In this document: positions 5,848 through 34,112 of the stretch, piece by piece | Layout: every line of letters begins with the position of its first letter | Position numbering within the stretch: the stretch's first letter is position 1 | DNA from: Afipia massiliensis | GTDB taxonomy: Bacteria > Pseudomonadota > Alphaproteobacteria > Rhizobiales > Xanthobacteraceae | Assembly: GCF_014203115.1 (NCBI RefSeq) | Contig: NZ_JACHIJ010000005.1 | Location: forward strand, 310,001 to 374,000 | Length of the DNA: 64,000 nt | Direction: 5' to 3' | Notes under the pieces: model-generated | Databases searched by the model: none | Told to the model about the DNA's origin: nothing | Seen by the model: the letters and a program-made list of their open reading frames with translations, nothing else | Translations under genes and position numbers: made by a program

Positions 5848-7374
5848 TTATCGGGAGCTTTGCCCTGGTGTCTGCGGGCGGACGATGCCCCAGCCGATCC
5901 GCACCAGCGCCTGGCGGCCCTTGACCAGGCGTTCGAAAGATCGCGGCACTTCCGGCACGAGGCCGGGAAACCGCTTCAGAATATCGGCGGGCGGCGTGCC
6001 GGCGGTATCCGCCGCGCGCCAGACCACCACGCCGCCGTTCTCGGTGAACAGCTTTGGCGTGATCCACGGTGTCTCTTGTGGTGTTGCATCGAACATGACG
6101 TGCGGGCGCGAGGACGCCCCGAAGCCGATCAATGTTGCGAGGTGCGGATCGCCCGCCACCGCGGCGAGCGGTCGGCCGGTGCGGCGCTCGAAATTCTCGC
6201 CGAAGAAGCGCCCGATATCGCGCGCCGGAAGCGACGTCTTGACCTCGGTGCTACCGATCCACGGCTGGATGAATGTCATGCCGAGGACAACCGCAATCGG
6301 CGCGGCCATGATGACCAGCCACACCGAGCGCAGATGCTGTTGCCGCCGCAGCGCGATGAGATCCCCCGCCGCAATGATCACCGCAAGTCCTGCGAGCAGC
6401 AGAGCGATCCCGTCACCGCCGATGACCTGATCCTGGCCGAGCAGCGCGGCAACAAAGCTGAGCGCAACCGGAGGTACGAGCGCGAAGACGTAAACGAACA
6501 GCCGCGCGAAGGGATCGGCCGGCGGACGAAAGATCAGCGGCGGATCCTCGCTCTTGCGGTCGAGCGCGCGGGAATTGAAGATCAGCAGGAGCGCCACACC
6601 GGACAGGGCGAACAGCAGTCCCGCCAGCAGCCCGCCCCATCCGAGCAGCCGCTCCTGAAACTCCGCCACCGCAGGCAACGACGGCAGCGCCAGCGCATTC
6701 GCGCGGATCAGCCAGATCCAATATGGCAGCACCAGCACGATCACCACGACGGCTGCATAAAGCGGATCAGTCGATAACAACGCGCGACGGCCTTTCGCCG
6801 TCGCCAGCACAAACACTGCCAGCATCGCCAGCAACGGCAGCGCGGCCGACGTGGTCAAAATCAACAGGCCGATCTCGATGGGCAGCCAGAACCACGCGCG
6901 CCGCCGACCCTGCCCGACGATCTCCCAGGTGTGAAGCAGGATCAGCGCCCACAGCGGCCGCGCCACGATGAGCGGGCCGAACTCCGCACCGGGAAACGAG
7001 AACGCCGTGATCGTCGCAGTCAGCAGCACCGCAAGAACGGCCTGCTGCGCACCTACGATGGCGCGGCCAAGCCTGAACAGCGCCCAGAACGTCAGGATGA
7101 AACAGAGCTGCGCCAGCAGATAGACGCCGAACATATGATTGCCGGACAGACGGAAGGCGACATCGCCGAGCCAGAATGCCAGCGGCGGGCCGAGATGGGT
7201 GCCGACCTGGTACTCCCTGCCGAAAGCCAGCACCGTGGCGACGTCGCCCGGCGGACTTCCGTACAACAACCACGGCAAAAGCAGCCAGAGCCCCGCCTGC
7301 GCCAGCACCACGATCCAGAAGATCAGCCGCGGCCGGGCGCGGACCAGTTCAACGATCAGGGATGTGAAACGCAT
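5848..7374 (-). CDS. GT39-type membrane glycosyltransferase (ArnT/PMT-like)
   Basis: This is a large polytopic inner-membrane protein of about 508 residues resembling glycosyltransferase family 39, which moves sugars from polyprenyl-phosphate carriers to lipid or protein in the periplasm. Visible features are an N-terminal membrane anchor followed by a first periplasmic loop with GDVATVLAFGREYQVGTHLG, where the family's acidic catalytic residue is expected, then HMFGVYLLAQ and about ten more hydrophobic segments. A soluble C-terminal domain (from about residue 400) reads as periplasmic. ATG 7374 (MRFTSLIVEL) is chosen; GTG 7410 is an in-frame alternative. The acceptor is unknown; lipid A, hopanoids and surface glycans are all possible. 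Confidence 0.8.
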   Translation of the reverse strand: MRFTSLIVELVRARPRLIFWIVVLAQAGLWLLLPWLLYGSPPGDVATVLAFGREYQVGTHLGPPLAFWLGDVAFRLSGNHMFGVYLLAQLCFILTFWALFRLGRAIVGAQQAVLAVLLTATITAFSFPGAEFGPLIVARPLWALILLHTWEIVGQGRRRAWFWLPIEIGLLILTTSAALPLLAMLAVFVLATAKGRRALLSTDPLYAAVVVIVLVLPYWIWLIRANALALPSLPAVAEFQERLLGWGGLLAGLLFALSGVALLLIFNSRALDRKSEDPPLIFRPPADPFARLFVYVFALVPPVALSFVAALLGQDQVIGGDGIALLLAGLAVIIAAGDLIALRRQQHLRSVWLVIMAAPIAVVLGMTFIQPWIGSTEVKTSLPARDIGRFFGENFERRTGRPLAAVAGDPHLATLIGFGASSRPHVMFDATPQETPWITPKLFTENGGVVVWRAADTAGTPPADILKRFPGLVPEVPRSFERLVKGRQALVRIGWGIVRPQTPGQSSR

Positions 7375-7447
7375 GAAACGTTCGAACCGGCCTTTGGAAG
7401 GATGCCTCACTGATAGAGCGCACGAGGCAATCAGGCAACCGAACCGC

Positions 7448-8224
7448 TCAGATGGCCGCGATTGCCTCTTCGGACGACATGATCATCTCGATCTGGGCCG
7501 CCGCCGGGGTGTCGTCTTCCCCGAAATGCTTGCGGCGTGACGCCGCGACAGGCGCGAAAAAGCGGCGGTGATGAATGGTCGGCCCGAGTCGGTCGAGCGC
7601 TTCGAGATGGGCCGGGACGCCGTAACCCATGTGCTGTTCGAAGCCGTAGCCGGGATGATCCTGCGCCAGCCGACACATCAGCCGGTCGCGCGAAACCTTG
7701 GCGACGATGGAGGCTGCTGCGATCGACAGGACAATACCGTCGCCGCCGATCACCGCCTCGCAATCGCAGGACGTAGCCAGCCGGTCGCGCCCGTCGACAA
7801 AGACGTGCTTCGGCGTCTCAGGCAGCGCATGCACCGCGCGCGCCAGCGCCCAGAGCGAAGCGCGCAGGATATTGTCGCGGTCGATCCGCGACGGCGGCGC
7901 AATCGCAACTGAAACCAGCGCCGTCGCGCAAATCTCCTCGAACAGTTCCTCACGGCGCTCGCGCGTCAGCCGCTTGGAATCGTCGATGCCCTTCGGAACC
8001 CGCTTCGGATCGAGGATCACGGCAGCCGCAACCACCGGACCGGCCAGCGGCCCGCGCCCCGCCTCGTCGCAACCCGCAACCGGCCAGACGCCGCGCTTCA
8101 GCAATGCACGCTCACGGCGAAAGCTCGGCGCCGCGACGGCGATCACGCCGCTTCGCTTCGCTTTTTTTGCCTCTTTTGGAACCGCTGGGGACTTCCGAAT
8201 CATGCGGCGATGCTGCGGGCGCAT
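7448..8224 (-). CDS. rnhB: Ribonuclease HII
   Basis: RNase HII cuts the RNA strand of RNA-DNA hybrids and removes single ribonucleotides misincorporated in DNA. The core begins at [16 protein letters not shown], containing the catalytic pair Asp53-Glu54. The other acidic residues are in FVDGRDRL (Asp144) and near [10 protein letters not shown] (Asp180), and the substrate-binding tail [11 protein letters not shown] is present. About 45 N-terminal residues form a basic lysine-rich extension. ATG 8224 is listed; ATG 8203 (MIRKSPAV) is equally plausible. The gene follows the glycosyltransferase promoter region on the same strand. The C-terminus ([18 protein letters not shown]) extends past the catalytic core. 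Confidence 0.95.
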
Positions 8225-25390: not shown

Positions 25391-26380
25391 ATGACACCTG
25401 ATCTCCCCGCCGAACTGAAAGCCGCGCTTGCCCGCAAGGTCGAGGGCCTGTCGCGCAACGACGCCGCGCAGCGCGCGGACACTATCTCACGCACCTATCG
25501 CGACGGCGGCGGCTCCGGCGGTATCCGGACCGGTACGGACGCGCTCGCCTATGCGCTCGCGCGGATGCCGGCGACCTATGCGGCGGTCACCGCGAGCCTC
25601 AATGCTCTGACGGAGGTCAATCCGGATTTCGCTCCACGTAGCCTGCTCGATATCGGCGCAGGACCAGGCACCGCGACATGGGCTGCGAGCGAAGCCTTTG
25701 CGTCCATAGACGCCTTCACCCTGCTGGACGCCAATACGGCGCTACGCGATCTTGCCACCGAGCTTGCGCAGTCGCACTCGCGGTTCAACACGATGCGCTA
25801 CGAGTCCGGAGACGCGCGCAAAGCGCTTGCAGAAGCTCCCGAGGCGGACTTCGTCGTCGCAAGCTATGTCATCAACGAGTTGGGCGCGAACGAACGCGCA
25901 GCATTGGCCGACGCCATGTGGGCGAAAACAAGCGACACGCTGCTGGTCGTCGAACCCGGCACACCGGCAGGCTATGCGCGCATCATCGATCTGCGCACGC
26001 GGCTGATCGCCAGGGGCGCGCATGTGATCGCTCCCTGCCCGCACGATGCAGCATGTCCGCTGACCAAACCCGACTGGTGTCATTTCACGCAACGGCTGCA
26101 ACGATCTCGCGCGCATAAACACCTCAAAGCGGCGGACCTTCCCTACGAGGATGAAAAATTCAGCTACGTCGTTCTGTCACGCGCGCCGCCCGCGCACAGG
26201 CCCTCGCGCGTGCTGGCCCAGCCGCAGGTGACCAAGATCGCGGTGACCGCAAAAATTTGCGCAGCCGATGGAATAGAAACCGCGAGCGTCCCGCATCGGG
26301 ACAAGGCTGCGTACAAGCGCGCGAAGAAATGGGATTGGGGCGACGCAGTTTTTCCCGCTGAGAATGCTGGGCCGGAATAA
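25391..26380 (+). CDS. Rsm22-like small-subunit rRNA methyltransferase family protein
   Basis: A 329-residue protein of the Rsm22 family, known from mitochondria as a small-ribosomal-subunit assembly factor and predicted methyltransferase. The SAM-binding region is SLLDIGAGPGTATWAASE (about residues 80-97), followed by the family motifs VIAPCPHDAACPLTKPDWCHF, whose cysteines suggest a metal site, and SYVVLSRAPP near the C-terminal region. The tail (RAKKWDWGDAVFP) is basic. It directly follows smc (33 bp). A ribosome-assembly role is inferred from the family. ATG 25391 has an SD sequence GAGG inside the hairpin described above. Confidence 0.88.
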   Translation: MTPDLPAELKAALARKVEGLSRNDAAQRADTISRTYRDGGGSGGIRTGTDALAYALARMPATYAAVTASLNALTEVNPDFAPRSLLDIGAGPGTATWAASEAFASIDAFTLLDANTALRDLATELAQSHSRFNTMRYESGDARKALAEAPEADFVVASYVINELGANERAALADAMWAKTSDTLLVVEPGTPAGYARIIDLRTRLIARGAHVIAPCPHDAACPLTKPDWCHFTQRLQRSRAHKHLKAADLPYEDEKFSYVVLSRAPPAHRPSRVLAQPQVTKIAVTAKICAADGIETASVPHRDKAAYKRAKKWDWGDAVFPAENAGPE

Positions 26381-26452
26381 TTTCGCCATGCCGGAGTTTG
26401 TCCTGATGACGCGTTCGCGTCCGACGCAAAATTCATCAGGAGTAAAACTGCG

Positions 26453-26833
26453 ATGTCCAAAACATTCGCCGCGATTGCGGCTGCGACTCTCATGCTCGCG
26501 TCAACCGGTGCCTTCGCGCAGGCGGCGAAAGTCGCTGACACTCCGGCTGGCAAGACCTATGTCGATGCCAAGGGCATGACGCTCTATACATTCGACAAGG
26601 ACGCTGGCGGCAAATCGGCCTGCAACGGCCCCTGCGCCACCAACTGGCCGCCGCTGATGGCCGCCGCAGACGCCAAGGCCTCGGGCGACTGGACCATCGT
26701 CACCCGCGACGACGGCAGCAAGATGTGGGCCTACAAGGGCAAGCCGCTTTACACGTTCGCGAAGGACACCAAGCCCGGCGATACCACCGGCGACGGTTTC
26801 CTCAACGGCGCATGGCACATGGCCAAGCCCTGA
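26453..26833 (+). CDS. Secreted COG4315 protein with Yx(F/W/Y)xxD repeats
   Basis: A 126-residue protein with a classical signal peptide (MSKTFAAIAAATLMLASTGA, cleaved near AFAQA). Two copies of the COG4315 repeat follow: AKGMTLYTFDKDAGGKSACN with NGPCATNWPPL, and YKGKPLYTFAKDTKPGDTTG. The family is described only by these Yx(F/W/Y)xxD repeats and is usually periplasmic or a surface lipoprotein; the pair of cysteines (SACNGPC) could form a disulfide. No lipobox is visible, so a soluble periplasmic form is more likely here. Function unknown. ATG 26453 follows AGGAG at good spacing. Confidence 0.88.
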   Translation: MSKTFAAIAAATLMLASTGAFAQAAKVADTPAGKTYVDAKGMTLYTFDKDAGGKSACNGPCATNWPPLMAAADAKASGDWTIVTRDDGSKMWAYKGKPLYTFAKDTKPGDTTGDGFLNGAWHMAKP

Positions 26834-26869
26834 TCGGCTGAAAGGCCAGAACGCCCATCAGAAAAGAGC

Positions 26870-26937
26870 GTCATGGCCGGGCTTGTCCCGGCCATCTACG
26901 TCTTGAACCTCCCAAAGAAAGACGTGGATGCCCGCGA
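26870..26937. repeat. Degenerate copy of the GTCATGGCCGGG palindrome family
   Basis: GTCATGGCCGGG, CTTGT and CCCGGCCAT form the same first hairpin as at 8305. A second hairpin follows: CTACGTCTT pairs with AAGACGTGG (26895-26932). The element is thus a two-hairpin version of the same family. It begins about 35 bp after the COG4315 stop codon. Confidence 0.75.
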
Positions 26938-26987
26938 CATAGGCGAGCGGAAGCGACGCCGTTCTTTCGAACGACTATGCGCGGACA

Positions 26988-27062
26988 TGACGAACGAGAG
27001 ATCGAGACTGTTAAATTGTCTGCAGGGCCTTGAACCATCGCTCCTTGAAGGCGACCAATGAG
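26988..27062 (+). CDS. Possible 24-codon leucine-rich leader ORF
   Basis: An ATG-started frame of 24 codons (MTNERSRLLN, then CLQGLEPSLLEGDQ) ends at TGA eight bases before a strong terminator hairpin. Six of 24 residues are leucine, including one TTA codon, which should be rare in so GC-rich a genome. A short Leu-rich ORF before a terminator resembles an attenuator leader, but the next gene (lemA) is not a leucine biosynthesis gene. There is no clear SD site, so it may not be translated. Confidence 0.35.
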
Positions 27063-27069
27063 AACCACT

Positions 27070-27103
27070 CCGCCGTGCGGCCCCTGCCGCACGGGCGGTT
27101 TTT
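27070..27103 (+). terminator. Strong Rho-independent terminator upstream of lemA
   Basis: CCGCCGTGCGGC pairs with GCCGCACGGGCGG around a CCCT loop, with a one-base bulge, and is followed by TTTTT. It ends whatever RNA starts in 26834-27070, or acts as an attenuator 44 bp before the lemA start. It is far from the upstream COG4315 stop (about 235 bp). Confidence 0.8.
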
Positions 27104-27146
27104 GGTTTAGGGTGCGCCATTCGTTGTCCTCAAGGAGTTTTCCCTC

Positions 27147-27707
27147 ATGTCGTCCGGCTGGATTTTACTCGGTGTCATCGTCGTCATCGCGCTGTTCGTG
27201 TTCGGCGCCTACAACCGGCTGGTCGCGCTGGCGCAGCGCGTCAGCCAAGCGTTCGCCGACATCGACGTGCAGCTCAAGCTGCGCCACGACCTGATTCCCA
27301 ACCTGGTCGAGACGGTCAAAGGCTACGCCACCCACGAACGCGGCACGCTGGAGGACGTTATCAAGGCCCGCAACGCGGCCATGTCCGCGCAGGGACCGGC
27401 GCAGGTATCGGCAGCGGAAGGCCAGCTCGGTGCGGCGCTGGGCCGGCTGATCGCGCTCTCAGAGGCCTATCCGGACCTCAAGGCCAACGCCAACTTCCAG
27501 CAGTTGCAGTCCGAGCTGTCCGATATCGAAAACAAGATCGCCGCCAGCCGCCGCTTCTTCAACAATGCGGTTCAGGAATACAATACCGGCATCCAGCAAT
27601 TGCCGGCAGCCCTGTTCGCGGGTGCGCTCGGCTTCACCAAAAAGGACTTCTTCGACCTCGGCGAGCAGCGCGGTCAACTCGAGCAGGCGCCATCGGTCAA
27701 GTTCTGA
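27147..27707 (+). CDS. lemA: LemA family protein
   Basis: LemA proteins are small membrane-anchored helical-bundle proteins of unknown biochemical function. The 186-residue product has an N-terminal membrane segment (ILLGVIVVIALFVFGAYN, residues 6-23) followed by the family signature LRHDLIPNLVETVKGYATHE and the later NFQQLQSELSDIENKI and NNAVQEYNTGIQQLPAALFA. Length is normal. AAGGAG lies 7 nt before ATG 27147. The M48 peptidase gene starts 33 bp downstream; LemA next to an HtpX-like or M48 peptidase is a recurrent pair in proteobacteria and suggests a joint envelope role. Confidence 0.94.
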   Translation: MSSGWILLGVIVVIALFVFGAYNRLVALAQRVSQAFADIDVQLKLRHDLIPNLVETVKGYATHERGTLEDVIKARNAAMSAQGPAQVSAAEGQLGAALGRLIALSEAYPDLKANANFQQLQSELSDIENKIAASRRFFNNAVQEYNTGIQQLPAALFAGALGFTKKDFFDLGEQRGQLEQAPSVKF

Positions 27708-27740
27708 TCGCCTGATCCCGGAAACGACGAGCAGCGCATC

Positions 27741-28904
27741 ATGGCCGCGTACGGTCTCTACACGCACATCGCGTCGAACAAGTTTCGTTCGATGCTGCTG
27801 CTCGGCGGCCTTTTCCTGCTCGTCTATGTGATGGTGTTCGCCGGTGCGCTGCTGGCGGAAGTCGCACTCAACAGCAACCGTCCGTTCGACGCCTATATCA
27901 CCCTCGCCGGGCGCGACCTGATCAAGGCGTTCCCCTTCGCCACCATCGGCGCCGCGGTCTGGATCGTGATCGCCTACTTTTTTCACCAGAACATCATCGA
28001 TGCGGTCACCGGCGGGCATGACGTCACGCGGCAGGAACAGCCGCGACTTTATAACCTGCTCGAAAACCTCTGCATCTCGCGCGGCATTCCGATGCCGAAG
28101 CTCAAGATCGTCGACAGCCCCGCGCTCAACGCCTTCGCCACCGGTCTCAACCGCAGCCAGTATGCGATCAGCGTCACCACGGGCCTGATGAAGGCGCTCA
28201 GCGACCGGGAAATGGAAGCCGTCCTCGGCCACGAGTTGACGCATATCCGCAACGGCGACGTGCAGTTGCTGGTGATCGCGGTCGTCATCGCCGGCGTGAT
28301 CGGTTTTTTCGCGGAACTGTTTTTCCGCATCTTCTTCAACTCCAACTGGAGCCTCGGCGGCGGTGGACGGTCCTCCTCGTCATCGTCGGACGGTGACAAG
28401 AAGGGCGGTGGTGCCTTCGCCATCGTGCTGCTGGCGATTGCCCTGATCGGCGTCGCCTGGGGCCTGTCGCTGGTGGTGCGCTTTGCCCTGTCGCGTTCGC
28501 GCGAGCTGCTGGCGGATGCGGGTTCCGTCGAACTCACCAAGGACCCGGACGCCATGATCTCGGCGCTGCGCAAGATCGAGGGCCGCGGCGAACTGCTAGG
28601 TGCGACCTCCGCCGTGATGGAAATGTGCATCGACAATCCGCGCGAGGGCTTTGCCGACCTGTTCGCGACCCACCCCTCGGTCGATTCGCGGGTCAAGGCA
28701 TTGGTGAAGTACGCGGGCGGCCACGATCCCGGCCCGATGCCGCTGCCGCTGCCGGGCGGCGACGCCGAAACCGGCCAGGACGCGCCCCAATCCGGCGAGC
28801 CCTCGCCCGAAGCGCGGCCGGAGCCTCCACATACCGGACCATGGGGCAGTTCCCCGCAGTCGACGCCGGCAGGCTCGATTCTCGGTCCATGGGGCCGCCG
28901 ATGA
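27741..28904 (+). CDS. M48 family membrane metallopeptidase (HtpX-like)
   Basis: A 387-residue zinc peptidase of the M48 family, involved in membrane-protein quality control. It has membrane segments at about residues 18-40, 67-80 and two more after the active site (VIAVVIAGVIGFFAELFFRIF and FAIVLLAIALIGVAWGLSLV). The zinc site is VLGHELTHIRNGDVQ (HELTH, residues 164-168), and the third ligand is expected in SRSRELLADAGSVEL. The last 70 residues are Pro/Gly-rich and probably disordered, longer than in E. coli HtpX. It pairs with lemA upstream. Substrates unknown. A short serine/glycine/lysine linker (SSSSSDGDKKGGG) interrupts the membrane region. Confidence 0.92.
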   Translation: MAAYGLYTHIASNKFRSMLLLGGLFLLVYVMVFAGALLAEVALNSNRPFDAYITLAGRDLIKAFPFATIGAAVWIVIAYFFHQNIIDAVTGGHDVTRQEQPRLYNLLENLCISRGIPMPKLKIVDSPALNAFATGLNRSQYAISVTTGLMKALSDREMEAVLGHELTHIRNGDVQLLVIAVVIAGVIGFFAELFFRIFFNSNWSLGGGGRSSSSSSDGDKKGGGAFAIVLLAIALIGVAWGLSLVVRFALSRSRELLADAGSVELTKDPDAMISALRKIEGRGELLGATSAVMEMCIDNPREGFADLFATHPSVDSRVKALVKYAGGHDPGPMPLPLPGGDAETGQDAPQSGEPSPEARPEPPHTGPWGSSPQSTPAGSILGPWGRR

Positions 28905-29049
28905 CCCTTCGGCATTAACGAAGCCGTTGTTTATTAAGCATAACAGCGTCGTCAAGAATTGAATTATCCCTCGATTCTGCCATGTTCCGGCAGAAAGCAG
29001 GCTAAGCTCCCGTCGTCAGGCGGACGTGTTTAGCGCGTAAAGGGGTCTT

Positions 29050-29817
29050 ATGGCGAAACCGGCAGTGATCGTAGTGGGCGCAGACAAGGGTGGGGTCGGC
29101 AAGACCACCGTTTCGCGCACCGTTCTCGACTATTTCAGCGCAAACAACATCCCAACCCGTGCCTTCGATACCGAATCGCCGCGCGGCACGCTGATGCGTT
29201 TTCATCCCGACATCACCGAGATCGTCGACGTTACCTCGACGTCCGATCAGATGAAGATCTTCGATACGCTGAATTCGTCGGGCACCAGTGTGACCGTTAT
29301 CGACGTTCGCGCAGGACTGTTGTCCCCCACCCTCGCGGCGCTTCGCGACATCGGCTTTCTCGATGCCGCCCGCTCCGGCCAGATCACCTTCGCCGTGTTC
29401 CACATCCTCGGCCCGTCGATTGCCTCGCTCGATGAGATCGCCGAGACCGCGAACTTCATGGACGGCGCGAAGTACTTCCTGGTGAAGAACTTCATCAACA
29501 ACACCAGCTTCTTCGAGTGGGATCAGGCGACCTACAATTCCTATTTCCACCGCATCAAGAACGCGACCGAGATCACGATTCCGAAGCTGAACGAAATGGC
29601 CTACGAGCAGGTCGAAGTCGCCTCGGTGCCATTCCTCAAATTCGTGGCCAACAAGGGGACGAAGGACGAGGCCGCGAACTACTCGTTCGTGCTGCGCGGC
29701 TATGTCCGCCACTGGCTGGGCAATGTCTGGGGCGAATTCGACCGCATCAAGCTGACCGAGATCGTCGGCTCCAAGGACAAGTCCAATACGTCGCGCGCAC
29801 CGACAAGCGAGATCTGA
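29050..29817 (+). CDS. ParA-like P-loop ATPase, first of a tandem pair
   Basis: A 255-residue protein of the ParA/MinD superfamily. The deviant Walker A KGGVGKTTVSR (residues 13-23) has the signature lysine; FDTESPRGTLM stands for the Walker A' loop and VTVIDVRAG for Walker B (with Asp but without the usual PPG). The rest is not typical ParA: no helix-turn-helix is present, and the C-terminal half (SVLRGYVRHWLGNVWGEF-like tail) is unusual. ATG 29050 follows AAAGGGG. A second, more divergent P-loop protein starts 26 bp downstream, so they are one operon. Partners, cargo and cellular position are unknown. Polar localisation, secretion or segregation are all possible. Confidence 0.8.
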   Translation: MAKPAVIVVGADKGGVGKTTVSRTVLDYFSANNIPTRAFDTESPRGTLMRFHPDITEIVDVTSTSDQMKIFDTLNSSGTSVTVIDVRAGLLSPTLAALRDIGFLDAARSGQITFAVFHILGPSIASLDEIAETANFMDGAKYFLVKNFINNTSFFEWDQATYNSYFHRIKNATEITIPKLNEMAYEQVEVASVPFLKFVANKGTKDEAANYSFVLRGYVRHWLGNVWGEFDRIKLTEIVGSKDKSNTSRAPTSEI

Positions 29818-29843
29818 TCGTCTGACCGCCGGACATCGCGCCG

Positions 29844-30515
29844 ATGCGCCGCACGCCTGTCTATATCGTCTGCTCGCCCCGCCCCGCGGTGGGCAAGACC
29901 CTGATCGCGCGGGCATTGACCGAATTCCTCGTGCTTCAGCGCGGCGCGGTGACCGCTTTCGACATCAACCTGCGCGAGCCGTCGCTGCTGAACTATCTCC
30001 CCGGCGTGACCGAGACCGCGCTGATCAGCGATACCTTCGGGCAGATGGCGCTGATGGACCGTCTCATCGTCAATGACGGCGTGCCCAAGGTCATCGACCT
30101 CGGCTTTCACGCCTTCGACGATTTTTTCAAGCTCATCGCGGAAATCGGCTTCATGAAGGAAGCGGACCGGCGCGGCGTCGATCCGATCGTTCTGTTCATT
30201 CCCGATCGCGACCGGGCCTCCATCATGGCGTGGGCGATGCTGCGCGAGACGTTTCCGAACGCCGCTATCGTGCCGGTCGAGAACGAACACGTGTTGTGGG
30301 GACCGTTACCGCGAGAATTCGCCCGCGTGCGGCCGTTCAAGGTCGCGGCGCTGCCCGCATTCCTGAAATCAATTATCGGGCGGCTGAACTTCTCGTTCTC
30401 GCACTACCTGCGCACCAACAAGGATCAGTCGTCGGAACTGCATCAATGGGTGCGCACCAACTACACGCGCTTCCGCGAGCTGGAGCTGAACCTGATCCTG
30501 CACAAGCTGGGATGA
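29844..30515 (+). CDS. Divergent P-loop ATPase-like protein, second of the tandem pair
   Basis: A 223-residue protein with the same order of motifs as its neighbour: a degenerate Walker A SPRPAVGKT (residues 11-19, no first Gly), AFDINLREPSLLNYL in the place of the Walker A' aspartate, and VIDLGFHAFDDF as Walker B. The next block (VLFIPDRDRASIMAWAML) resembles a base-binding strand, and the C-terminus is a charged helix (QWVRTNYTRFRELELNLIL). It may be an inactive or slow partner that forms a heterodimer with the upstream ATPase. No family function known to me. Its stop is 1 bp from that of the convergent SDR gene. Confidence 0.72.
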   Translation: MRRTPVYIVCSPRPAVGKTLIARALTEFLVLQRGAVTAFDINLREPSLLNYLPGVTETALISDTFGQMALMDRLIVNDGVPKVIDLGFHAFDDFFKLIAEIGFMKEADRRGVDPIVLFIPDRDRASIMAWAMLRETFPNAAIVPVENEHVLWGPLPREFARVRPFKVAALPAFLKSIIGRLNFSFSHYLRTNKDQSSELHQWVRTNYTRFRELELNLILHKLG

Positions 30516-30516
30516 T

Positions 30517-31317
30517 TCAGTAGTAGATGCTTCCCGGCGCGCCGCCGCCCGCCGCAATCGCATCGCCGTTGATGGCGATCGACTTTGGCGACGCCAGAAA
30601 TGCGACGATATGGCCGATCTCCTCGGCCGTGACGAGACGGCGGATGGTATTGAGATCGTTCATCGCCTTCTCGACTTCGGCTTCCGTCTTCTTCGTGAGC
30701 CCAGCGCGCCACGCGATCACCCCCGGCGTTTTCTCGGTCCGGGTCAGGCCGGGATGCACACAGGTCACGTTGATGCCGCGCGGCCCCAGTTCATCTGCAA
30801 GATTCTTGGTGAGCGCAGCCACGCCGACATTGCGGATGCTGCCGATGGTGGTGCCGGTCTGACGCGCGCCAAGCCCGCTGATATTGATGATGCGGCCCCA
30901 GCCCTGCTCCGTCATCAGCGGCGCGACCTCGCGCGCCATGCGCAGATAGCCCATGACCTTGACGTTGACGTCGCTCCAGAACATCTCGTCGGTGATCTCG
31001 CTCAGCGACGGCGGCTTGGCCTGCCCGCTCGGCTGCGCCGCGCTGTTGACCAGCACATCGATCCGGCCGAAGTCCGAACGGATCGCAGCGACTGCGGCGC
31101 GAACCGCCTCGTCCTTGCCGGTATCCGCTGCATAGGCGCGAACGGTGCGGCTCGTTTCACTTGAAATTTCCGAGGCCGTCGCCTTCGCCGCCTCAAGATC
31201 GCGGCCGACGATCACGACGTCCATGCCCTCGCCGGCAAGCGAGCGCGCAATCGCCTTGCCTATGCCGCGCGTGCCGCCGGTGACGATTGCGATTTTACCC
31301 GTGAGCTGAAGATCCAT
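30517..31317 (-). CDS. SDR-fold protein lacking the YxxxK catalytic pair
   Basis: A 266-residue short-chain dehydrogenase/reductase fold. The cofactor motif VTGGTRGIGKA (residues 13-23), the NSAA strand (VLVNSAAQPSG) and the serine strand RIINISG are normal. The helix that should carry Tyr-x-x-x-Lys reads GSIRNVGVAALTKNLADELG; aligned on LTKNLADEL, Gly replaces Tyr and Asn replaces Lys. Classical hydride transfer is therefore doubtful, and the protein may bind NAD(P) as a regulator or use another residue. I have seen this GSxRN pattern in other alphaproteobacterial annotations. It starts at ATG 31317 and is convergent with the ATPase pair. Substrate unknown. Confidence 0.85.
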   Translation of the reverse strand: MDLQLTGKIAIVTGGTRGIGKAIARSLAGEGMDVVIVGRDLEAAKATASEISSETSRTVRAYAADTGKDEAVRAAVAAIRSDFGRIDVLVNSAAQPSGQAKPPSLSEITDEMFWSDVNVKVMGYLRMAREVAPLMTEQGWGRIINISGLGARQTGTTIGSIRNVGVAALTKNLADELGPRGINVTCVHPGLTRTEKTPGVIAWRAGLTKKTEAEVEKAMNDLNTIRRLVTAEEIGHIVAFLASPKSIAINGDAIAAGGGAPGSIYY

Positions 31318-31381
31318 CTGCCGCCCGTTATGTTTGAGAGCATTGTCTGACGGCTACCCGTTTCACTTCATCGAAACGCCC

Positions 31382-31921
31382 TCAGTCGCCGTCAAATGTC
31401 ATCAGCGTTCGCACCGGCACATCCATCGCGCGCAGCTTGGCCGCGCCGCCGAGTCCCGGAAGGTCGATGATAAAGCACGCTGCAACCACCTGGGCACCGA
31501 TCTGGCGCAGCAGCTTCACCGCGCCCTCTGCCGTTCCGCCGGTCGCGATCAGGTCGTCGATCAGGATGACACGTTCGCCGGGCATGATAGCGTCGGCATG
31601 CATTTCCATCTCATCCAGGCCATATTCCAGCGAGTAGGCAATTCGCACCGTCGTATGCGGCAGCTTGCCCTTCTTGCGGATCGGCACGAAGCCCGCCGAG
31701 ACCTGATGCGCCACCGCGCCGCCAAGAATGAAGCCGCGCGCTTCCATGCCGGCGACCTTGTCGATCTTCGACCCGGCCCAGGGCTGCACCAGTTCATCGA
31801 CCGCGCGGCGAAAGGCCCAGGCATTGCCCAGCAGCGTGGTGATGTCGCGGAAAACAATGCCGGGCTTTGGGTAGTCCGGAATGGCGCGGACGGTGGCTTT
31901 CAAATCGTCTTCGAGAGTCAT
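31382..31921 (-). CDS. apt: Adenine phosphoribosyltransferase
   Basis: Apt salvages adenine to AMP using PRPP. The 179-residue protein has the PRPP-binding motif [20 protein letters not shown] (about residue 115 onward), the N-terminal [19 protein letters not shown] typical of the family, and [17 protein letters not shown] 31921 gives the normal length; the longer in-frame start at 32005 would overlap trpE(G). Apt lies 25 bp downstream of trpE(G), on the same strand, which suggests co-transcription. The NCS2 permease at 4507 could feed the same purine salvage route, though it is 27 kb away. Confidence 0.95.
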
Positions 31922-31946
31922 GTGGCGTCTTTCAAAACACGAATGT

Positions 31947-34112
31947 TCAGGCGTTTCCGGACCGGCCGAGCCTGAATGCGTTTTCCACGATCCGTAGTCC
32001 GACATTGCCTTCCAGCGACATCAGCGACTCGGGATGAAACTGAACGCCACCGACCGGCAACGTCTTGTGCTCGATCGCCATGGCGATGCCGTCTTCTGTG
32101 CTGGCCGTCACCTCCAGCACGTCGGGCATGCCCTCGCGCTCGACATAGAGCGAGTGGTAGCGGCCGATCACGACCTCGTTCGGAAGGTTGCCCATTAGCG
32201 TGCCGCCGCGCACCTGAACGCGCGAGGGGCGGCCGTGTGCCGGCGTGGACAATTGCCCGAGCTTGCCGCCGAAATATTCGCCGATGGCCTGCACGCCGAG
32301 GCAGACGCCAAACACCGGCAGCTTTTTCTCAAGCGCCGCGCCGATGAACTTCGAGATACCGAAATCCTCTGGGCGGCCGGGACCGGGCGACAGCACCAGA
32401 AGGTCGTAGTTTTCCTTCTTCAGCATGTCGAGCGCATGATTGTGCCGCGTGACGCTGACGGTCGCGCCGACTTGACGGAAGTAATCCGCCAGCATGTGCA
32501 CGAATGAGTCTTCGTGATCAATCAGAAGCACCCTCTTGCCGGAGCCAGTGGCGTCCGGCGCGAACGCCGACAACGGCTTCGCCGGATCGCCGCGTAGTGC
32601 CTGAAACAGCGCCGCGGCCTTGGTCTGGCATTCCTTCTCTTCAGCGACGGGATCGCTGTCGAACAGCAGCGTCGCGCCGACGCGCACTTCGGCCAAACCG
32701 TCCTTCATGCGGATGGTACGGATGGTCAGGCCCGTATTGATGCTGCCGTCGAAGCCAAGAAAGCCGAGCGCGCCGGCATACCAGCGCCGCGATGAGCGCT
32801 CATGGTCCTCGACGAACTGCATCGCCCACAACTTCGGCGCACCGGTCACGGTGACCGCCCAGGCGTGGGTCAGGAAGCCGTCCAGCGCGTCGAAGCCCGG
32901 ACGCAGCATGCCTTCGACATGATCGACGGTGTGGAACAGCTTCGAATAGGTCTCGATCTGCCGCCGCGCCAGAACCTTGATCGTGCCCGGCTCACAAACG
33001 CGCGCCTTGTCGTTGCGGTCGACGTCGGTGCACATGTTGAGTTCGAATTCGTCTTTCTGCGAATTCAACAACTCCTGAATCTGCTTGGCGTCGCTGATGG
33101 CGTCGACGCCCCGCGCGATAGTGCCGGAGATCGGACAGGTCTCGATCCGCTTGCCGTCGGAGCGGACGAACATTTCCGGCGACGCCGCCACCAGAAATTC
33201 GCCGTCGCCGAGATTGATCAGGGCGCCATAAGGCGATGGATTGATCTTGCACAGGCGCTGGAACACTTCGGCGGGCGTGCGCTCGCACGGTTCGGCGAAC
33301 AATTGCCCCGGCACCGCCTCGAACAGATCGCCGCGTGCAAATGCCTGACGCGCCGTCTCGACGGTCGCCTGATAGACGCCCGGCGCATGATCGGCGAAGC
33401 CTTCGCGCTTGGTCTTGGCGTAAACGCTCTGCGGCGTTTCGCGGTCGAGCCCCTTGGTGGACTGGCCGTTAAAGGCGAATTCGTAGCTCAGAATGACGCC
33501 GCGCCCGGTGGCGCGGTCATAGGCCAGAATGCGGTCGGGAATGTAGAGAACGATGTCGCGCTGGTCTTTTTCGCGCGTACGTTTCTGCACGAGATCTTCA
33601 AACTGGAACACCAGATCGTATGCGAAAGCACCGAACAGCCCGAGCAACCCGTCGCTCGGAGAATTGAATGCCGCGATAATGTCGCGCACCAGCGACACCA
33701 CCGACGAACGCCGCGTGCGCTGGTCCTCGTCCACCGGCGCGTCGCCGCGCACGATGTGACCCGCAATGCGCGTCGCGCTCTTTTCGGTGATGACGGCGCA
33801 GGGCTCTTTCAAAGTCTCGGCGAGGAAGGCCACCAGCACCTTGCCGCGTGCGTTCAGCGCCTCAATGAAGAAATCCGTGCCGGTGGATTCCAGCCGCAGC
33901 GGCGGATCGGAAAAGCCGAGGTCGAAACTCTCGTAGCGGCCCGGCACCGTGGTGCCCGACGACAGCACCACGCCGCGGCGGGTATCGAGCCGCTCGATCA
34001 GCAGGTCGAGCGCCGTGCCGCCGGTGAAATGCTCGACGGAACGGGCCACATCGAGGCCGCGGGCGGTCCGGTATTCGCTCTGCGCGGGAAGCGCGAAAAC
34101 TGTCCTGTTCAT
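31947..34112 (-). CDS. trpE(G): Fused anthranilate synthase TrpE-TrpG
   Basis: Anthranilate synthase makes anthranilate from chorismate and glutamine. In rhizobia both components are one polypeptide, as here (721 residues). The TrpE part (residues 1-500) includes the chorismate-binding end [20 protein letters not shown] and [13 protein letters not shown]. The TrpG amidotransferase (residues 530-721) has the nucleophile Cys in [17 protein letters not shown] and the His-Glu pair in [14 protein letters not shown]. Feedback inhibition by tryptophan is expected from the N-terminal part ([10 protein letters not shown]-like region). SD AAGAGGA precedes ATG 34112. Transcription is governed by a trpL attenuator (34160-34276). 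Confidence 0.96.

Follow-up and report, generated by a model that had tools for sequence, protein, structure and literature searches.

In ATPases of the deviant-Walker-A class, to which ParA and MinD belong, the signature lysine acts in trans within the dimer, and the nucleotide face is at the same time the dimer interface. The signature-lysine motif of the ParA class is described in passages of PMC9178275, which also deal with orphan ParA proteins (PpfA, ParC, McdA and BcsQ), i.e. ParA-type ATPases outside a parAB locus that have other cargo. TraL (IncP), MobD (pTF-FC2) and StbB (R388) form a further group, found on conjugative plasmids, for which parts of PMC3098194 describe a common KGGxGK motif, StbB-like proteins with a diverged SGxxGK motif, and a requirement of R388 StbB for conjugation but not for stability. 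A connection between ParA-type ATPases and bactofilins is also on record: in M. xanthus the bactofilins BacNOP hold ParA via the adapter PadC (PMC5703909, in part), and in Bdellovibrio a ParA-type ATPase gene shares a parA-parB-bactofilin transcript with the adjoining bactofilin gene (PMC7186360, in part).

Here we describe a tandem pair of ParA-like genes, A and B, in a window of 64,000 nucleotides (the whole stretch of DNA that was analysed) from the chromosome of Afipia massiliensis. Like the orphan ParA proteins, A is a ParA-type ATPase outside a parAB locus; unlike them, going by their descriptions, it is followed by a conserved, impaired partner. An earlier note on this DNA, made from the letters alone, had proposed the pair as an undescribed system, and we found no description of it in the literature searched, a body of text outside of which most subscription papers and bioRxiv preprints fall. 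As far as their texts were available, a Tn-seq paper on B. diazoefficiens (PMC8225791) contains nothing on the pair, nor on MinD, HtpX or LemA, and a paper on 16 Bradyrhizobium phages (PMC12656738) does not have the whole word ParA in its main text. The features of the locus are as follows.

29050..29817, + strand: gene A, ParA/MinD-type ATPase of 255 aa with an intact deviant Walker A motif (KGGVGKT), TraL/MobD-like by profile
29077..29106, + strand: residues 10-19 of A (GADKGGVGKT), the P-loop, containing both the signature Lys13 and the Walker Lys18
29167..29181, + strand: A-prime motif of A, residues 40-44, DTESP, Asp40 invariant
29302..29316, + strand: Walker B equivalent of A, residues 85-89, DVRAG, without PPG
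29844..30515, + strand: gene B, 223 aa, a diverged homologue of A that has lost the signature lysine but retains most of the nucleotide site
29871..29900, + strand: residues 10-19 of B (CSPRPAVGKT), the P-loop, without Gly10, with Arg in place of Lys13 and with Lys18 retained

Residues, fold and kinship of the two proteins

Both open reading frames lie where the earlier note had placed them, on the same strand and with 26 nt between the stop of A and the start of B, and they are homologous, both by BLASTP (26% over 111 aa, E 3e-10) and by profile-profile alignment (233 columns, E 1.2e-25), each E-value being that of a single comparison. A search of the genome itself with A, at E-values up to 1, returned A and B only, and gene B has its closest named relatives in Afipia records, at 97-99% identity. 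The motifs that had been read in this one genome recurred when 70 A rows and 66 B rows (near-identical rows included) were compared. A has the canonical deviant Walker A motif (GADKGGVGKTT), with Lys13, Lys18, Asp40 and Asp85 invariant in 70/70 rows, as are Glu42 and Pro44, and instead of PPG its Walker B position reads D85-x-R/K-A-G, Ala88 and Gly89 again being present in every row. In B, the signature Lys13 is found in none of the 66 rows (51 have Arg there), nor is Gly10, while Lys18 is kept in 60, Asp40 in 65 and Asp85 in all 66. The KGGxxK[S/T] motif with its signature lysine is present in A and missing in B, so that B is kin of the ParA/MinD deviant-Walker-A proteins by descent and fold, not by motif. 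In the six rows that have lost Lys18, B may, judging from that residue, not bind nucleotide.

Single-chain models of both proteins were good (mean pLDDT 84 for A and 91 for B), and the predicted fold is of the ParF/MipZ/MinD type. The best VIA-align match was ParF in both cases, namely 4e09 for A (Z 16.5, rmsd 3.0, 193 aligned residues) and 4e03 for B (Z 16.6, rmsd 2.7, 186 aligned), with MipZ (2xj4) reaching Z 16.2 against A; a viral protein structure library gave one match below E 0.001, to an unnamed protein with low TM-scores. Such a fold, the MipZ-like N-terminus of A and its one match in PHROGs (phrog_164, "ParA-like partition protein", residues 2-64, E 1.4e-5) would suit an ordinary partition or division-site ATPase, be it the ParA of a ParABS system, MinD or the MipZ of alphaproteobacteria. 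However, A and B stay below every curated Pfam and NCBIfam cut-off, including those for ParA, MinD and MipZ; A scores 11.7 bits against Pfam MipZ (cut-off 20.7), whereas the nine MipZ proteins used score 188-345 and all exceed it. Against a MipZ profile built from these nine rows, the likeness is limited to the P-loop part, with 56 columns for A (E 2e-14) and 59 for B (E 2e-8), again as single comparisons, and no profile similarity was found past that part. In addition, the window contains no ParB, all six ParB_N places of the genome lying outside it, in keeping with the earlier reading that no ParB-like gene is nearby. We therefore rejected plain ParABS, MinD or MipZ, and consider such an identity the least probable of the explanations weighed here.

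In contrast, the match to a 12-row TraL/MobD profile is nearly whole-length, covering 229 columns in A (E 8e-24) and 227 in B (E 5e-26; single comparisons), which places both proteins in the wider TraL/MobD/StbB kin, though not in TraL itself. By its sequence, including the KGGxGK motif, A is related to the TraL/MobD proteins of conjugative plasmids. It differs from them in scoring only 11.9 bits against NCBIfam TraL (cut-off 360; no TraL match was listed for B) and in a C-terminal motif of the A family, S-x-V-L-R-G-Y-x-R-x-W; moreover, A and B are chromosomal and in tandem, and no relaxase was found by Pfam among the ten flanking genes scanned. When plasmids were searched by tblastn, A matched 21 records, all from cyanobacterial genera and at 20-27% identity, and B matched none. 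The five cyanobacterial relatives that were scanned all hit the TraL model (1e-5 to 3e-12), at 24.7-46.7 bits and thus below its cut-off. On cyanobacterial plasmids (L279-L282 and L292) the TraL/MobD-like gene is followed, either immediately or after one other gene, by a DUF6753 gene.

A phylogeny of both genes had been suggested as a check. In a quick tree the whole B group, which included one very long row (L172_B), was without support, and the 34 B rows without it received 96. In the careful trees, from which L172_B was left out (and from the last one L172_A as well), the remaining 19 B rows form one clade (100/99) apart from A and phage A; the node that bears on whether A and B are each other's closest kin or two separate gains from TraL-like stock has a support of only 64/35.

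Conservation of the pair and its exceptions

LemA and M48-peptidase genes lie upstream of A, and on the opposite strand, downstream of B, are genes for a short-chain dehydrogenase, a phosphoribosyltransferase and a chorismate-binding/glutamine-amidotransferase protein; all ten flanking genes scanned have other Pfam domains. LemA and the M48 peptidase are found ahead of A in many, though not all, of the family's loci, and we therefore rejected them as obligate partners. An Rfam scan of positions 26000-32000 gave no family, and a scan for promoters and terminators gave nothing that clearly exceeded shuffled controls.

A was found in 104 of 149 genomes of the family, representing 33 of the 47 genera sampled, and B, at the same cut-off, in 106, some of these being cross-hits to A. 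Reading both tables jointly, we find that 97 of the 104 A-bearing genomes have a B of their own, which bears out the notion that an intact copy and a modified one are conserved together. The A genomes without their own B are five of genus g10, G111, and G081, where A is partial; in g10 this concerns 5/5 sampled genomes, in which the B profile matches only their A. Two incomplete genomes (G109 and G115, 84 and 88% complete) have just a piece of B. Conversely, two genomes of another family (G215 and G350) contain B without a detectable A, the A search giving no other match in them, and ten A-less genomes of the family (98-100% complete, picked by us) have neither gene. These A-only and B-only genomes indicate that the pair is not obligatory, which argues against an obligatory heterodimer.

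Of 68 loci studied closely, 56 have both genes, nine only A and three only B. Both genes are full length in 51; close Afipia relatives are among these, and at least one genome is represented twice. The five two-gene loci left out (L001, L016, L017, L118 and L119) are either broken copies or pieces at the end of a contig. In all 51 the order is A, then B, on a single strand, with a spacing of 13-220 nt in 50 of them and 682 nt in one, and many loci have the pair in conserved synteny, not in a variable island. Beyond the family, a search of the order with the A profile found 26 of 297 genomes, ten of them from the window's own family, and A is thus conserved in further families, although four of the outside matches are to B or short. 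Among 385 genomes of the class, full-length matches came only from the genome itself and one other of its family; the remaining matches cover about 52-67 N-terminal positions, and Pfam identifies nine of those proteins as MipZ.

Several single loci depart from the common arrangement. In L119 (G066, 6939-7690) the reading frame of A is broken into two that overlap, next to a B that is still open, and in G105, which also has an intact A and B, a second copy of the pair (L118, contig C107, 5207-6674) is decayed and in pieces with stops. In G097 (contig C67, L116/L117) the two genes are ~16 kb apart, with LemA/M48 peptidase still at A and the phosphoribosyltransferase still at B, which probably reflects an insertion between them. 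In L126 (G004, contig C489, 5474-6184), one of the three B-only loci, the usual LemA/M48-peptidase site has B but no A, in an assembly with 4% contamination that carries A-like genes on two other contigs. In three genomes of another family (L164, L174 and L175), two of which show no A, a gene (c30) for a small protein with a signal-peptide-like start is located 3' of B.

Comparing each of the two window genes with its counterparts from 20 loci (Nei-Gojobori), we obtained dN/dS values of 0.008-0.155 for A and 0.025-0.402 for B, i.e. below 0.41 in all 40 pairwise comparisons, so both genes are under purifying selection. B evolves faster than A, yet its range is that of a maintained gene whose constraint is weaker but real, and together with the presence in 33/47 sampled genera these values rule out chance open reading frames. 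They also bear on the idea that A and B are functionless leftovers of TraL/MobD-like genes from an integrated conjugative element. While the near full-length match to the TraL/MobD profile is what such a relic should give, neither the purifying selection on both genes, nor their retention in so many genera and in further families, nor the lack of a relaxase among the flanking genes scanned is easily reconciled with it, and we regard it as very unlikely.

Bactofilin neighbours and phage copies

The earlier note had seen no known cargo protein nearby. This holds for the ten genes beside the pair but not for the family, in some members of which a bactofilin gene adjoins A; this link, as well as the TraL/MobD kinship and the phage copies, is beyond what that note could see. 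The initial sighting was of four unpaired A genes near a bactofilin gene. A bactofilin search of 296 family genomes then gave 72 places in 53 genomes, with 243 genomes negative; 67 of these places, with five edge or weak places left out, make up the 66 loci that were examined, mostly up to 4 kb on each side and less at contig ends. An A-like gene lies within the stretch in 11 of the 66 loci, from six genera, and is absent from 55; by a rough estimate, chance would be expected to yield fewer than one linked locus of 66. In seven loci (L112, L113, L312, L352, L360, L361 and L398) a bactofilin gene precedes A in the same orientation, the order is A-bactofilin-B in L092 and A-B-bactofilin in L359, and the arrangement is looser in L110 and L111, the latter with 4.2 kb between the two genes in a longer stretch. 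In nine of the 11 no B was seen in the stretch, although in L360 and L398, where the contig ends less than 0.5 kb after A or inside it, B could have been cut off. With a profile from four of the linked bactofilins, seven of 19 further high-scoring loci are linked compared with 0/43 low-scoring ones (Fisher p 1e-4, with related rows and a score threshold picked after seeing the data). A helix-turn-helix regulator gene (c25), matched in 5/296 family genomes, accompanies bactofilin and A in L110, L111 and L112.

The resemblance to M. xanthus and Bdellovibrio lies in a ParA-type ATPase going together with a bactofilin. However, theirs are true chromosome ParABS systems with ParB, which the window does not have, and the ATPase here is TraL/MobD kin with a bactofilin beside it only in some relatives. 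The A. massiliensis genome itself gave no bactofilin match, nor did six other A- or B-bearing genomes checked, and bactofilin was consequently rejected as a general partner; a scaffold in this organism would be something else.

A-like genes also occur in phages, namely in two Bradyrhizobium phages out of 50,697 phage records, and in 129 contigs from a scan of viral contigs, of which 80 were kept. In these 82 copies Lys13, Lys18, Asp40 and Asp85 are invariant, the lysines partly by construction, as DKGGVGK was one of the two scan patterns. The scan pattern could not have found B, and the 82 viral stretches (at most about 6-8 kb on each side) contain no separate B-like ORF and no bactofilin ORF. 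Terminase, portal, major capsid or endolysin clusters lie within 2.5 kb of the viral A in 26 of 45 dereplicated stretches (L181, which groups with Bradyrhizobium A, being excluded, and labels coming from one scanned member per cluster); 18 are without such a labelled cluster and one has it farther off. Terminase large subunit is the top functional PHROG among 96 neighbour proteins (5/96). Host A is nested inside the phage copies in the careful trees; nevertheless, a single phage clade is not rejected by an AU test (p 0.448) and the quick tree has one phage clade of 45 (support 80) plus one recent copy, so that both directions, from phage to host and the reverse, are compatible with these trees.

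One may also consider a phage-interaction system, in which B acts as a dominant-negative decoy for phage A, or phage A puts host A out of action or takes its place. The phage and viral-contig copies, their lack of B in the stretches examined and the fast evolution of B are all compatible with it. On the other hand, the dN/dS of B is at most 0.40 gene-wide, which at that scale gives no sign of positive selection, many loci show the pair in conserved synteny, and with one phage copy as the query no copy of the phage type turned up in 297 genomes of the order (22 matched, all at host A places, two of them also listing broken or B-like pieces). A known defence system was rejected, as PADLOC gave no match for A or B and the matches to mad8 (0.0077, one phage copy) and BovA (0.064, LemA) are weak. 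We judge the phage-interaction explanation to be quite improbable.

A proposed positioning ATPase with an impaired partner

Starting from the homology, the conserved pairing, the residue pattern, the predicted fold and the gene neighbourhoods that were observed, we tentatively propose, at a probability of roughly 0.45, that A is a positioning ATPase working with a catalytically impaired partner, B, and anchored on a scaffold, which in some lineages is bactofilin. A would be an ATP-driven positioning ATPase of the ParA/MinD class, and would hydrolyse ATP; B would be an old homologue that no longer donates the signature lysine and has kept most of the nucleotide-binding face. ATP-bound A would dimerise both with itself and with B. 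Since the lysine acts in trans and B is without it, B should be unable to complete the site of A, while A could complete that of B; in an A:B dimer the trans lysine would thus reach the site of B only, and B would set the lifetime or the place of the ATP state. The dimer would be held on a cellular scaffold, in several genera presumably the bactofilin polymer encoded beside A, and phages, which carry A alone, would perhaps use the same surface or partner.

Alternatively, the two genes may be co-transcribed but their products act separately, A as a homodimeric positioning ATPase and B as a nucleotide sensor or adaptor, comparable to PadC, that forms no dimer with A. Each gene does occur without the other in some genomes, B is not seen in the seven loci with bactofilin upstream of A on the same strand nor as a separate ORF in the viral stretches, and its faster evolution would also fit. 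Yet 97 of 104 A genomes keep B, the order of A and B is the same in all 51 full-length loci, and B retains the nucleotide face, which in this class is the dimer interface; we thus regard separate action as somewhat unlikely. A positioning ATPase with B as its impaired partner can also be placed in a wider and much more speculative picture, one we think unlikely to be correct, in which conjugative plasmids, tailed phages and chromosomes, as three kinds of replicon, all draw on a single ATPase stock, the chromosomal B tunes A or poisons the phage copy, and the positioning hub, tied to bactofilin in some genera, is contested by host and phage.

If the proposed working of A and B is true, an undescribed positioning system made of an intact and an impaired ParA would be present in a large bacterial group, Afipia, Tardiphaga and Bradyrhizobium among them, and some phages of that group would carry its intact half. 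The bactofilin neighbours would then be a concrete first candidate for a partner, and the phage copies a natural handle on what the system controls.
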